Source: Holophagaceae bacterium
Lineage (GTDB): Bacteria > Acidobacteriota > Holophagae > Holophagales > Holophagaceae
Assembly (NCBI GenBank): GCA_025350765.1
Contig: JANXXC010000078.1
Coordinates: 1 to 33,369, forward strand
DNA: 33,369 bases
Reading direction: 5' to 3'
Shown: positions 4,409 through 32,550 of the stretch, piece by piece
How positions within the stretch are numbered: position 1 is the first letter of the stretch
Layout: each line of letters opens with the position of its first letter
Position numbers and translations under genes: made by a program
The notes under the pieces: generated by a model
The model's input: the letters and a program-made list of their open reading frames with translations, nothing else
Told to the model about the DNA's origin: nothing
The model's database searches: none

Positions 4409-4577
4409 ACTACGCGGAGGGAGGGTTCCTGTCTCCGCAAGCGAAGCGCGCGGGAGGCTGCGTGCAGCCGTCAGACGGGAGGGAGAAGCGGAGGCCCGCA
4501 AATTCGGGCGCCCCTGCGCGCAACGGACGAGCCCCTTTGCTTCCCTCTGATCTCCTCCACTGCCCTCCGCGTGGTGC
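4409..4577. repeat. GC-rich palindromic element flanked by imperfect inverted repeats
   Basis: cactacgcggaggg (4409 on) versus ccctccgcgtggtg (to 4575); inside, stem TCCTGTCT 4427-4434 / AGACGGGA 4473-4480 and hairpin GGCTG-cgtg-CAGCC 4456-4469. Confidence 0.6.
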
Positions 4578-22572: not shown

Positions 22573-22578
22573 CTCAGC

Positions 22579-22732
22579 TCCGCCGCGTTGCAAGCAGGTG
22601 CCCGATGTCCTGCCTCTGGGATCGCAGTGCCAAAGGCGCAAGGGAGCAGGAGCGCAGCGGGAGCGGTGCGATAGGCAGGAGGGCCATCGGGGATTTCATG
22701 GCATCCGCCGCGTTGCAAGCAGGTGCCCGATG
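22579..22732. repeat. Palindromic element flanked by 29-bp direct repeats of the ruvC 3' end
   Basis: tccgccgcgttgcaagcaggtgcccgatg at 22579-22607 and 22704-22732 (identical); between them TCCTGCCT (22608-22615) ... AGGCAGGA (22673-22680). Confidence 0.9.
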
Positions 22733-23196
22733 GCCACGGCGGCCGCGTCGGCGGCGTCCGCAGCCAGGGGCTCTTTCAGATTCAGGATGGTCATCACCAT
22801 TTTCCCCACCTGATTTTTGTCAGCCCAACCGTAGCCGCTGACGGCCTTTTTCACCTGCATGGGGTTGTAATCCCCCACGGGCAATTGATAGAGCGCCGCA
22901 GTCAGCAGGATGCCGCCGCGGATCTGCCCCAGCTTGATGGCCGTGGCGCTGTTCTTCTCCACGAAGGGCGATTCAACGGCCATGAAATTCGGATGATGGG
23001 CCGCGATGACTTCCGTTAGTTTTTGATGGATGCCCAATATCCGCTGATCGAATTCCAGACCTCTGGCTGAGCGGATGACGCCCGCTTCGATCAACTCCAT
23101 CCGCGATCCCAGCCGTGAGACCACCGCCCACCCGCAGGCCAAGGAGCCGGGGTCCACGCCAAGGCAGATGGAGGGAGTGGCAGGAGTGACCGGCAT
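22696..23196 (-). CDS. ruvC: Holliday junction endonuclease RuvC
   Basis: ICLGVDPGSLACGWAVVSRLGSRMELIEAGVIR..., FMAVESPFVEKNSATAIKLGQIRGGILL, DAADAAAVAIGHLLATRR. Confidence 0.95.
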   Translation of the reverse strand: MPVTPATPSICLGVDPGSLACGWAVVSRLGSRMELIEAGVIRSARGLEFDQRILGIHQKLTEVIAAHHPNFMAVESPFVEKNSATAIKLGQIRGGILLTAALYQLPVGDYNPMQVKKAVSGYGWADKNQVGKMVMTILNLKEPLAADAADAAAVAIGHLLATRRMP

Positions 23197-26858: not shown

Positions 26859-26997
26859 GTGCTGGGGTACGGACAGCATGGAGATGGTATTAGTGTTAAG
26901 TTAATAATAGCAGAAAAATTGAGGGTTGAGGGTTGAGAGCCGAAGCGACCGGGCCGCAGACGCGCACCATAAATCAAAAATCAAAAATCGGCCTGCT

Positions 26998-27240
26998 CAT
27001 CCCCCCGGATATCCAGTTTGATCAGGGCCATTTCTTCTTTGGTGATACGCCGCGCTGGGATGCCGCCCCAGGAGGGTTCCCGCCTCCGTCAGGCCGAAGG
27101 TTGAGCGGGAGCGCGCCTGCGCGCGATAGGCGGGAGGAGACCGTAGGCGGCATCCAACTAATCGACATCCCCTCGGATATCCAGTTTGATCAGGGCCATT
27201 TCTTCTTTGGTGATACGCCGCGCTGGGATGCCGCCCCAGG
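26998..27240. repeat. Palindromic element flanked by 75-bp direct repeats of the acyltransferase 3' end
   Basis: 26998-27072 and 27166-27240 match 74/75 (67 bp perfect from 27006/27174); between them TCCCGCCT (27078-27085) ... AGGCGGGA (27128-27135) and GCGCG-cctg-CGCGC. Confidence 0.93.
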
Positions 27241-27970
27241 TCTCATTGTCCGGGACGCGGCTGCCTGGCAGCACGACGCTTTGAGGCAGGATCACGGCAT
27301 TCTTGCCGATGACCACGTCACCCATGATGCAGGCTCCCGCGCCGATGGTGGCCCGGTCGCCAATGAAGATGGGCGCCACCACCAGGTTTCCGCCACCCCC
27401 GTAGTGGGCGAAGATGCGAACGGAACCGCCGAGCGCCGCATCGTCCCCCACGGTGATGAGCTGAGGGTCGCTGATGATTTCCGTGTTGATGAACGCGTGG
27501 CGGCCGATTTTCATGCCCATAGCCTTGAGAAACCAGACGCCGAAAGGCGTGAGCGTCACGAAGGGCAAAAAGGTGAAGCGCACCAGGTAAAACAGCGCGT
27601 TGTGCAGGAACCAGGGCACCGCCGTCAGTGTGTAATAGCCGCCTTTGAAGGGCTTCACGCGGGTGGGCAGCAGGAAGTTGTAGACGGGCACAACCACCAG
27701 CAGCGAGAGGCCGCCGACGAAAAACGCGAGGCTTAGGCCGAAGCCGTAGTAGGGCCATTGAAGCCAAATGGGGATGTTCGGCGAGTGACTCCACATCCAC
27801 CGGGTCATGCCGATGGCCGGTGCGAAGGCCAGGCCCAACGCCGTTGACGCGAGAACGTAGACCAGCAACACGATGATGGCGTAGCTGGCCCTGGCAAATC
27901 TCCGCATGAGCCGCTCCGTATGTCCCGTCGGCGGCGGACTCTTCGAGTGGTCCTGGGCGAACTCGGTCAT
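27158..27970 (-). CDS. Membrane-anchored left-handed beta-helix (hexapeptide) acyltransferase, similar to the terminal region of Pls/PosA-type proteins
   Basis: Start MTEFAQDHSK at 27970; TM segments then IGRHAFINTEIISDPQLITVGDDAALGGSVRIFAHYG...IGDRATIGAGACIMGDVVIGKNAVILPQSVVLPGSRVPDNETWGGIPARRI. Confidence 0.8.
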   Translation of the reverse strand: MTEFAQDHSKSPPPTGHTERLMRRFARASYAIIVLLVYVLASTALGLAFAPAIGMTRWMWSHSPNIPIWLQWPYYGFGLSLAFFVGGLSLLVVVPVYNFLLPTRVKPFKGGYYTLTAVPWFLHNALFYLVRFTFLPFVTLTPFGVWFLKAMGMKIGRHAFINTEIISDPQLITVGDDAALGGSVRIFAHYGGGGNLVVAPIFIGDRATIGAGACIMGDVVIGKNAVILPQSVVLPGSRVPDNETWGGIPARRITKEEMALIKLDIRGDVD

Positions 27971-28006
27971 GGGGCCAATGGTCGCATGGGAACAAAGAGG
28001 AAAAGA

Positions 28007-28205
28007 CTGGACACGGAGGACACGGAAAAAAGAGGAGAACACGGAGAAAAGCAAAAGACACCAATGCCGTTGAAACCGAAGCCGCAGATAACGCGGATGA
28101 CGCAGGAAATTCATCCGGGTGAACCCATGAAAGCCGTGGCTTCAGGGCATTCCCTCCGGGTTTCTTTTCTTCAGTGTCTTCTGTTTCCAGCCTCCTGTTT
28201 TGTTT
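28007..28205. repeat. Nested palindromic element, ACACGGAGGACACGGA family
   Basis: Left ctggacacggaggacacggaaaaaaga; right arm reverse complement ctggaaacagaagacactgaagaaaaga; inner AATGCC/GGCATT and GAAGCC/GGCTTC pairs. Confidence 0.7.
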
Positions 28206-29394: not shown

Positions 29395-29601
29395 CTCCTT
29401 GAGGTCTAAATCATTGACCCTCAGCTGCCGTAATTCTCCCTCGAATTGACGGATTAGGTATTTCATTTTGATCGAACCAGACCTAATGGCGGATTTCAAA
29501 AAATTATATAAATATTAATATAAAAGTATTTATCAATTTGGTTCGGAAGTTGCCCTTGGACTCCCAATGCTTCTGTTCACCCAGAAATGAGGAGTCCTGC
29601 C

Positions 29602-32550
29602 ATGAGGCCACGAAATATGAACCTTTTCAAATGCTTCACCAAATCACTGATGTCTCTGACATTACTGGTGGTCGCATTGGCGACGGGTTGTAAGGGAGGG
29701 CAGAATCCAATCCTAGGTGGGGGCGGCATTGCCGCACTCCCGCCCGTCGTGACTGCGGTAACTCCGCTCAACAATGCCACCAGCGTTCCGTTGAGTAATC
29801 CAAGCATCACCGCGACCTTCAGTGAGCCGATGGCCGCCATCAGTGGCGGAGCATCCTTCACGGTGGTATCCGCCGGAGCTGGACCCTCTCCCACCGGTAC
29901 GGTGGCCCTTGACTCCACCAACAGGATCGCCACCTTCACCATCACCTCGGGTGCCCTCACACCCCTCAATCCCTATACCGCCACCATCACCGGCGCCAAG
30001 AGCTTGGCCACAGGCCTTGCTTTGGCGAATCCCTATGTCTGGAGCTTTACGACGGGTCCCATTCCGGACACGACGCGGCCCAGGGTGACCATTACGGTTC
30101 CGGCTACGACGATCCCGGGTCCGACGCCAGATGTTCCGACCAACACCGCAATTTCCGCCGCCTTCACCGAGGATATGGCCTCTGCCTCGATCCTCGCAGC
30201 CGGCACATTCACGCTTAAAGGACCGGGCACGGCGACCGTCTCAGGGGTCGTGACCTACTCTTCCAGAACCGCGGTCTTTACCCCCGCGACTGTGCTTGTG
30301 GCCGATACGACCTATACCGCCACGATTACCCAGGCGGCTACGGATCTGGCCGGCAACGCGCTGGCGGGCAACCAAGCCCCCTTGCCTGTAGCCAGCGATT
30401 ATATTTGGACCTTCAGGACGGGTACGGTACCGGACACGACGCGGCCGCAGGTGAGTTTCACGGTGCCGGCCACGACGATTCCAGGTCCAACGCCTAACGT
30501 GTCCATCAACTCTGCGATTTCCGCGACCTTTACGAAGGATATGGCACCAGCAACGATCCTCGCAGCTGGCACTTTCACGTTGACGGGACCCGGCACGACC
30601 GCCGTATCGGGAGCCGTGACCTATGCTTCCCGAACCGCCGTCTTCACGCCTGCGGCAGTGCTGTTAGCCGACACGACCTATACCGCCACGATCACCGCAG
30701 CGGCCACGGACTTGGCCGGCAATGCGCTGGCGGGCAATCAGCCCCCACCTTTGCCTTCGGCGAGCAACTACATCTGGACCTTCAGAACCGGAACAACCGC
30801 AGATACGACTCGGCCCAGAGTGACGCTCACCGTCCCGGCCACCACGATTCCGGGTCCCACGCTCAACGTACCGAACAATACGGCGATCACCGCACTTTTC
30901 TCCAAGGATATGGCTCCCGCAACGATCAACGCGGCCACCTTCACTGTGACCGGACCCGGTGGCGCTCCCTTGAATGGTGGCGTGAGCTACGCCTCCCGAA
31001 CCGCGGTCTTCACACCCAGTGCGGTGCTCCTGGCTGACACGGTCTACACCGCCAGGATCACCCAGGCGGCCACGGACCTGGCGGGCAATCAGCTGGCCGG
31101 TAACCAACCCCCACCCTTGCCCGCGGCGAGCGACTATGTCTGGACTTTCCGGACCGGGCTCGCGTCCGATACGACCAGACCTAGGGTGCTGCTGACCGTC
31201 CCGGCCACGACCATTCCGGGTCCAACTACGGGCGTGCCCACCAACTCAGCCATCACCGCAATCTTCACGAAGGATATGCAACCTTCAACGATCAATGCGG
31301 CCAGCTTCAAGGTGACCGGACCCGGTACGACTCCCGTAGCGGGCAGCGTGACCTACTCCATCGGCTTCCAGACCGCGGTCTTCAAGCCGACGGCACTTCT
31401 TACAACCGACACCGTCTATACCGCCACCATCACCAAGGCGGCCACGGATTTGGCAGGCAACGCGCTGGCCGGCAATCAGCCCCCACCCTTGCCCGCAGCC
31501 AGTGACTACGTGTGGACCTTTAGGACCGGAACTCCAGTCCCGCCGTCCAATGTCTCAGTGCTTTCGACCAACCCAATGGCTGGTGCGTCCAATGTTTGTA
31601 CAACGGCCACGATCAACGCGACCTTTAACGTGCCCTCCGGCCTGCGGATGGACCCTGCAACGGTCAATACCAATACCTTTACCGTGACTGGACCTGGACC
31701 TGCGTTTACTCCGGTCATCGCCTCATCCGTGGTGCTTGATCCTGCTACAGGCCGCATCGCGACCTTTATGCCGGGTGCCGCGCTCACCGTAGGTGTTACC
31801 TACACCGCCACGATTAAAGGTGGTAATTCGGGGGTAAAAGACCTTGCGATCCCTGCGAATACGATGCTGGCCGACTTCACCTGGAATTTCACCGTCATCA
31901 ATTGTGTCGTGCCCAATCCGTCCCAACTCGGATCGGCCGCAGGGTTCGGGATCATGGCAACTTCCGCGATCACCAATGTTCCCACCTCTCGCATTAATGG
32001 TGATGTTTCCCTGGAGCCTGGGACTTCCTGCGGCTTGCTTCCCGCAGAGGTGAACGGCACGATCCACATCAATGATTCCATCTCACACCAGGCCCGAGCC
32101 GATCTCCTGACTGGGTACAACTACTACAAGGGCCTGGCACCTGGCGTCACGATTTCCGGTGGAGCGGACCTTGGTGCCTTGTATCCCTTGGGCATTCCGC
32201 CAGGCACCTACACATCGGGCAGCACGATGCTGGTCTCAACCCAGCTCACCTTCGACGGCGGGGGCAACGCGAATGCCGTCTGGGTCTTCCAGATTGGTTC
32301 CTCGCTGACCACGAATACGCCCATTGGCAGCATGACGCTCATTAACGGCGCCAGCGCCAAGAACATTTTCTGGGTGTGTACCGCGGATGCGACCGTCGGC
32401 GTCAATACGACCTTCTACGGAACCATCATCACTGGCCGAGACGCCACTGGACAGACCGGCGCCACCATCAACGGTCGAATCCTGGCCGGTGCGATCACTC
32501 CTGGCACGATCGCCTTGGACAAGAATACGGTCAACGTTCCTGCTCCCTAA
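29602..32550 (+). CDS. Surface lipoprotein with tandem Big_5-type Ig-like domains and C-terminal DUF3494 (ice-binding-like) domain
   Basis: Lipobox LVVALATGC; repeated DTTRPRVTxTVPATTIPGPTP...NTAISAxFTKDM...; C-terminal LGSAAGFGIMATSAITNVPTSRINGDVSLEPGTSC...GTYTSGSTMLVSTQLTFDGGGNANAVWVFQIGSSLTT. GAGGAG SD 7 nt before ATG 29602. Confidence 0.9.
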   Translation: MRPRNMNLFKCFTKSLMSLTLLVVALATGCKGGQNPILGGGGIAALPPVVTAVTPLNNATSVPLSNPSITATFSEPMAAISGGASFTVVSAGAGPSPTGTVALDSTNRIATFTITSGALTPLNPYTATITGAKSLATGLALANPYVWSFTTGPIPDTTRPRVTITVPATTIPGPTPDVPTNTAISAAFTEDMASASILAAGTFTLKGPGTATVSGVVTYSSRTAVFTPATVLVADTTYTATITQAATDLAGNALAGNQAPLPVASDYIWTFRTGTVPDTTRPQVSFTVPATTIPGPTPNVSINSAISATFTKDMAPATILAAGTFTLTGPGTTAVSGAVTYASRTAVFTPAAVLLADTTYTATITAAATDLAGNALAGNQPPPLPSASNYIWTFRTGTTADTTRPRVTLTVPATTIPGPTLNVPNNTAITALFSKDMAPATINAATFTVTGPGGAPLNGGVSYASRTAVFTPSAVLLADTVYTARITQAATDLAGNQLAGNQPPPLPAASDYVWTFRTGLASDTTRPRVLLTVPATTIPGPTTGVPTNSAITAIFTKDMQPSTINAASFKVTGPGTTPVAGSVTYSIGFQTAVFKPTALLTTDTVYTATITKAATDLAGNALAGNQPPPLPAASDYVWTFRTGTPVPPSNVSVLSTNPMAGASNVCTTATINATFNVPSGLRMDPATVNTNTFTVTGPGPAFTPVIASSVVLDPATGRIATFMPGAALTVGVTYTATIKGGNSGVKDLAIPANTMLADFTWNFTVINCVVPNPSQLGSAAGFGIMATSAITNVPTSRINGDVSLEPGTSCGLLPAEVNGTIHINDSISHQARADLLTGYNYYKGLAPGVTISGGADLGALYPLGIPPGTYTSGSTMLVSTQLTFDGGGNANAVWVFQIGSSLTTNTPIGSMTLINGASAKNIFWVCTADATVGVNTTFYGTIITGRDATGQTGATINGRILAGAITPGTIALDKNTVNVPAP
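30067..31533 (+). repeat. Four tandem coding repeats of 366-369 bp (Big_5 modules)
   Basis: Repeat starts at 30067, 30433, 30802 and 31168 (gayacgacncggcccagggtgac...), periods 366/369/366. Confidence 0.9.

Follow-up and report, generated by a model that had tools for sequence, protein, structure and literature searches.

Insertion elements of bacteria usually duplicate some 2-14 bp of their target, and the target repeats of MITEs are short as well, being made by the DDE-type transposase of a parent IS. Rickettsia palindromic elements (RPEs) preserve the reading frame of the gene in which they lie, while mitochondrial double-hairpin elements and GC clusters are organellar, leave a short target duplication or none, and are not known to carry an inverted target copy. 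IS200/IS605 chemistry involves no larger target duplication (PMC2817692), and the mobile ORFs of fungal mitochondria combine a LAGLIDADG or GIY-YIG endonuclease gene with a foreign, diverged tail (PMC3630166). Here we have analyzed a 33,369-nt stretch of DNA (the window), contig 34 of a fragmented MAG (G000, a 2.9-Mb draft genome, 91% complete), together with relatives comprising Holophagaceae MAGs and Geothrix species (Acidobacteriota). In our judgment, a palindrome found at gene ends in the window, P, is probably one copy of a small mobile element that carries no gene and whose insertion duplicates about 30-230 bp of its target; insertion near a gene end therefore leaves a full end upstream and the old end downstream.

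An earlier note on this DNA had described a duplicated tail around a palindrome at the end of an acyltransferase gene (a Hexapep CDS of 318 aa in the ORF list, 27158..28114 on the minus strand; Pfam PF00132, E=8e-9; orthologues at 64-78% identity), and our repeat search recovers it: 75 nt at 26998-27072 and 27166-27240, 74 of them identical (99%), at an offset of 168. The 20-nt core of this repeat, TATCCAGTTTGATCAGGGCC, occurs twice against 0.01 expected in shuffled window sequence. On the coding strand, with all parts on the minus strand of the window, the layout reads u-a-T1-x-[a'u']-P-a-T2. The gene-proximal tail copy, T1 (27166..27240), is followed by x (27156..27165), a short filler giving a new stop codon (TAG, 27158-27160), and the CDS now terminates in this first copy (..DIRGDVD, then the stop). 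Next to P lies a'u' (27137..27155; GGATGCCGCCTACGGTCTC on the coding strand), 19 nt that form an inverted copy of GAGACCTGGGGCGGCATCC (27226-27244), that is, of the u-a junction, which holds the start of the duplicated stretch, and hence of T1, plus a few nucleotides upstream of the duplication. It is at this junction that tail copy 2 begins. The inverted copy (inverted repeat I2) reads GGATGCCGCC-TAC-GGTCTC, its junction being marked by a 3-nt scar, and tracks the species-specific target in most congeners and Geothrix species. P itself (27073..27136) is a double-hairpin palindrome of the family P_D (82.8 bits with covariance model R3); the palindrome between the tails folds as DNA at -30.5 kcal/mol (shuffle z -3.8), and a'u', P and a together make a single long hairpin. 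As the earlier note had it, the insert carries no ORF (x, a'u' and P add up to 93 bp) and there are two C-termini, the proximal frame ending in GGIPARRITKEEMALIKLDIRGDVD before its stop and the distal copy in GGIPARRITKEEMALIKLDIRGDEQADF. The distal copy, T2 (26998..27072), runs into the native downstream flank and is the ancestral gene end, with the ancestral C-terminus read just after it (26981..26997; ..GDEQADF, stop at 26981-26983). That note overlooked two things, the inverted copy of the target and the dispersal of the palindromes throughout the family.

Two other repeats in the window are worth recording. Short intergenic words (TTGAGGGTTGAGGG, ATCAAAAATCAAAAATC, AGCTACGAGCTATG and CGGAAGCCGGAAGCC) recur in G000, at window positions 26915-26990 and at L125:5127-5230, L371 and L372. 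Furthermore, a 987-aa ORF on the plus strand (29587..32550), probably a repeat protein, has internal repeats at 30040-31157 with a period of 366 bp (122 codons).

The suggestion that other GCGATAGGCRGGAGG sites be searched for gene-tail duplications proved fruitful, as the one at 22668 sits in a second complete example, at ruvC (22579-22735), with the same order of parts and again on the minus strand. The ruvC CDS (22696..23196, 166 aa; Pfam PF02075, E=8e-44) now ends ..ATRRMP. Its 29-bp tail, CATCGGGCACCTGCTTGCAACGCGGCGGA, is present twice, as T1 (22704..22732) and T2 (22579..22607), identical at 29/29 positions, and between them lies a P_D element (22608..22681; R3, 48.9 bits), beside which a'u' (CCCCGATGGCC, 22682..22692) repeats GGCCATCGGG (22726-22735) in inverted form. 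The second copy gives the ancestral end (..ATRRS, stop at 22574-22576). A third P_D copy in the window (4423..4482, minus strand; R3, 48.1 bits) had no flanking duplication recognizable when its flanks were read.

Comparison with congeners reveals which tail is original. At ruvC, G004 and G002 have exact empty sites, a single tail joined directly to the sequence found downstream of copy 2 in G000, and G001 likewise has one tail; because the occupied/empty pair with G004 and G002 is clean, the distal ruvC tail is the original one. Single-tail empty sites of the acyltransferase gene are found in G001 and G004, and the tail of rpsR, where G000 has a site, is single in G002, G003 and G004. The clean empty sites at the three genes uphold the earlier proposal that the gene originally ended in the distal copy, and those at ruvC and the acyltransferase gene the proposal that an element inserted in a gene, with a duplicated tail restoring the end of that gene.

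The acyltransferase arrangement is also present in G003, and in G002 with three tandem P copies. Since the filler CGATTA[GA] after T1 is common to G000, G002 and G003, a single insertion was inherited from their ancestor. Within G000, T1 and T2 are 98.6% alike, and T1 of G000 differs from T1 of G003 by 23%; given the shared insertion, the tails have therefore been homogenized afterwards. Across species, 10 of the 11 genomes show a T1-T2 identity of 0.93-1.00, whereas comparison with the nearest other species gives 0.77-0.89, and the two tails are more alike than orthologues of different species except in one sister pair; the eleventh genome is G003 (0.79), whose tails have drifted (79% alike) and whose T2 has a frameshift. 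In many Geothrix species the arrangement follows the acyltransferase gene with a different P sequence, either replaced in place or inserted again, and in most congeners and Geothrix species a'u' matches the species-specific target. Many other species do not have the arrangement, which has been lost there. Two details of individual loci may be added: in a two-contig genome (L017, G024:C2) a run of N lies exactly between the two acyltransferase tails, and at L064:10870-11060 a 30-31 bp unit, the left end of family P_C (TGATTCCCTCCCTGTGGGGCC), stands in tandem after the acyltransferase gene.

Beyond the window, P elements fall into several dispersed families of double hairpins, with 1-31 copies per genome. 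Family P_A is represented by covariance model R1, which matches in 57 of 77 Holophagaceae genomes and in none of 16 genomes from two other families of the class. Sixty loci fetched by P match alone show a flanking direct duplication in 53 cases, against 2 of 148 control placements, a figure to be read with the caveat that R1 was built from duplication-bearing copies and that the 60 loci are among its best hits. P_A has sharply defined ends, TGACTACCCCC at the left and GGGGGCCCCGT at the right, and conservation outside them is at background level; the duplication begins immediately after GGGGCCCCGT, and in 55 of 58 duplication-bearing copies the start of T2 lies no further than 5 nt from the end of P. 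At 38 unrelated sites the ends of P are fixed and its orientation relative to the asymmetric flanks is always the same, and T varies from 38 to 228 bp (38 independent sites). P is conserved between genera although the flanks differ, and tandem amplification is seen as [T-P]n arrays. Both tails carry the same stop codon at several sites (e.g., L262, L313, L305, L268), and in the well-defined cases their stops coincide or lie no more than a few codons apart, a pattern to be expected were survival limited to insertions that leave the gene with its end. No Rfam family covers P; the only matches, from six sources, were tRNAs.

The targets are diverse. A direct-repeat scan covered flanks, parts of G000 and 1.6 Mb of G007. 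In G007, a complete genome, it adds sites at glutaredoxin, HU, AhpC-like and M24-like peptidase genes, a tRNA 3' end and the acyltransferase gene; the M24-like site has three tails and two P. In six species a thioesterase gene is duplicated at its 5' end instead, and at L032 the target is the 3' end of a tRNA that is an Rfam match and putatively a tRNA-Gly; the AhpC and M24 names, like the tRNA-Gly identity, are readings of the sequence. One glutaredoxin insertion point recurs in two genera (L112:6681-6928 and L292) with the same a'u' and different P families, P_C and P_A, reflecting either exchange of P in place or repeated targeting. Duplication is less regular in the other families. Genomes of the genus hold 13-31 copies each of P_D, the family found in the window, and only 6 of the 26 P_D copies examined have a duplication; P_B has one at 10 of 22 copies. 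Either the duplication disappears from places where it is not under selection, or insertion can occur in more than one way. Copies of P_D inside apparent IS transposase genes, two in G000 (L343, L348, G000:C210) and one in G004 (L335, G004:C142), lack a long duplication, and one is flanked only by CATG. P_B copies at L368, L360, L361 and L356 begin right at the 3' CCA ends of tRNA-Leu or tRNA-Ile genes, with no duplication recognizable there.

Over the sites taken together, the inverted target copy is statistically significant. In a gapped test over 38 sites, the inverted copy of a site's own u-a junction scored 9.5 on average, against 6.8 for the junctions of other sites (permutation p<=5e-5), and 12 of the 38 exceeded the 99% control. 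It is clear at only about 16 of the 38 and decayed or absent at the remainder. Commonly it carries a scar of a few nucleotides at the junction, owing to which an ungapped test is weaker (12 of 42 above 95%).

Inverted patches and small scars of this kind resemble the products of template switching or templated end joining, and hairpins are known to arise and persist by template switching (PMC8794818). The main rival to a mobile element is a purely host-driven origin, in which replication errors alone, by template switching or end joining at existing hairpins, would make tandem duplications of a gene end and terminator with templated inverted patches, P being a preferred template and not itself mobile. 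The existence of [T-P]n arrays fits such errors, as does the fact that no mobilizing enzyme was found in the genomes searched. On the other hand, errors of the host would hardly give P the same ends and orientation at 38 unrelated sites, nor orthologous sites with and without P, nor a P conserved across genera whose flanks are not; we regard this origin as unlikely, if the most serious of the alternatives.

The complementarity of a' with a, and of u' with u, at the acyltransferase site also tracks changes between species (GGTTTC/GAAACC, CACCGCC/GGCGGTG, CCCCGCC/GGCGGGG), and the arrangement has been retained for long across species. It is conceivable that the whole is a regulatory module under selection, in which a' would pair with a in T1, which belongs to the translated gene end, or in T2, and the alternative hairpins would affect termination or mRNA stability. 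Such covariation is expected from template-switch correction as well, however, and a switch would not need a full-length T2; moreover, the arrangement has been lost in many species, the T2 of G003 is frameshifted, and the targets include housekeeping genes, tRNAs and an antisense position at a gene start. These points make a regulatory module improbable.

Still less credible is a REP/REPIN-type element moved in trans by a Y1 (RAYT) transposase, even though P is palindromic, double-hairpinned and dispersed, P_A has a GTAG at one end, and some congeners (G002, G003, G004) have a Y1 gene. The GTAG is found 3' of the palindrome (as a CTAC 5' of it when the other strand is read) and not 5' of the hairpin as in REP/REPIN-RAYT, hence on the wrong side, and the ends of P_C and P_D carry no GTAG-type tetranucleotide. 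A T of 38-228 bp at 38 sites also sits badly with IS200/IS605 chemistry. RAYT was rejected as the mobilizer, since PF01797 is missing from several copy-bearing genomes, with none in G000 (91% complete), G007, G017 or G024. Finally, the window does come from a fragmented MAG, but an assembly or binning artefact can be dismissed, as the arrangement is found in many species and in complete or isolate genomes, including G007 (a single contig), G055, Geothrix campi (L037) and G. limicola (L063).

For the mobile element that we favor, the anatomy of the sites suggests how insertion might proceed. Strands would be opened at two points 30-230 nt apart, the bottom strand at the u-a junction and the top strand beyond T, and the 3' end at a' would receive the P hairpin, by joining or by copying. 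A snap-back of the strand being extended might then let it copy some 10-20 nt over the junction, which would leave a'u' with its scar; joining to the other end would follow, and gap filling would produce the duplication. Later on, gene conversion between T1 and T2, along with unequal exchange, could hold the two tails similar or multiply [T-P] units. That this amounts to an undescribed transposition mechanism, with a hairpin element, cuts spaced 30-230 nt apart, obligatory snap-back copying of the junction, a re-supplied gene end that renders nearby insertion harmless and a putative Holophagaceae enzyme, is a tentative idea, somewhat less probable than its negation. In the literature searched, which left most subscription papers outside, no description of the arrangement with its inverted target copy was found. 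Within the genomes searched, no mobilizing gene (transposase, RT or other) was linked to P copies. Reverse transcriptase (RVT_1, PF00078) was likewise rejected as the mobilizer, being missing from several copy-bearing genomes (G000, G007, G055, G080 and G085), with the proviso that divergent RTs could escape this search. CRISPR-like adaptation, where the repeat length is fixed, was set aside on consideration, as were integron attC sites and group II intron remnants.

A dispersed family that leaves 30-230 bp and an inverted target copy points to unfamiliar insertion chemistry, and the element's presence in cultured Geothrix makes it experimentally testable. Such a parasite can settle in ruvC, rpsR, HU or tRNA genes and leave them unbroken, and duplication of tails is a natural route to new C-termini. 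For the Holophagaceae hosts, soil and sediment bacteria that include Geothrix, the dispersed repeats may also account for puzzling pairs of gene tails and for contig breaks in their genomes.

How does P compare with the systems described so far? The earlier note had likened the locus to fungal mitochondrial endonuclease elements, and in outcome the likeness to the mobile ORFs of Allomyces atp6 and Glomus atp6/cox2 is real: insertion occurs at a gene end, an end is supplied upstream and the native end lies downstream. As a mechanism the comparison fails, because the parts differ: here there is no ORF, the duplicate tails are local, and the targets comprise unrelated genes by the dozen, tRNAs and, in one case, the 5' end of a gene. 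Mitochondrial double-hairpin elements and GC clusters are likewise compact double hairpins spreading between sites, and P differs from them in its long duplication and its inverted target copy. RPEs too are palindromes inserted within coding genes, whereas here the gene is restored through duplication of its end. REP and REPIN sequences share with P the form of short, dispersed, non-coding palindromes, sometimes in tandem; unlike them, P lies inside gene ends and not in extragenic positions only, with a 30-230 bp duplication and an inverted target copy, and numbers 1-31 copies per genome. Bacterial MITEs are likewise small, non-autonomous and dispersed, with direct repeats from insertion, and in the broad sense P fits among them by its dispersal, its defined-end copies standing at orthologous sites that are occupied in some genomes and empty in others. 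A MITE derived from a DDE-type parent should leave a short target duplication of fixed length, whereas those of P are long and variable (38-228 bp) and come with an extra inverted target copy. Set beside all of these, the palindromes are probably one more variant among small mobile palindromes, possibly with an insertion mechanism that is itself new.
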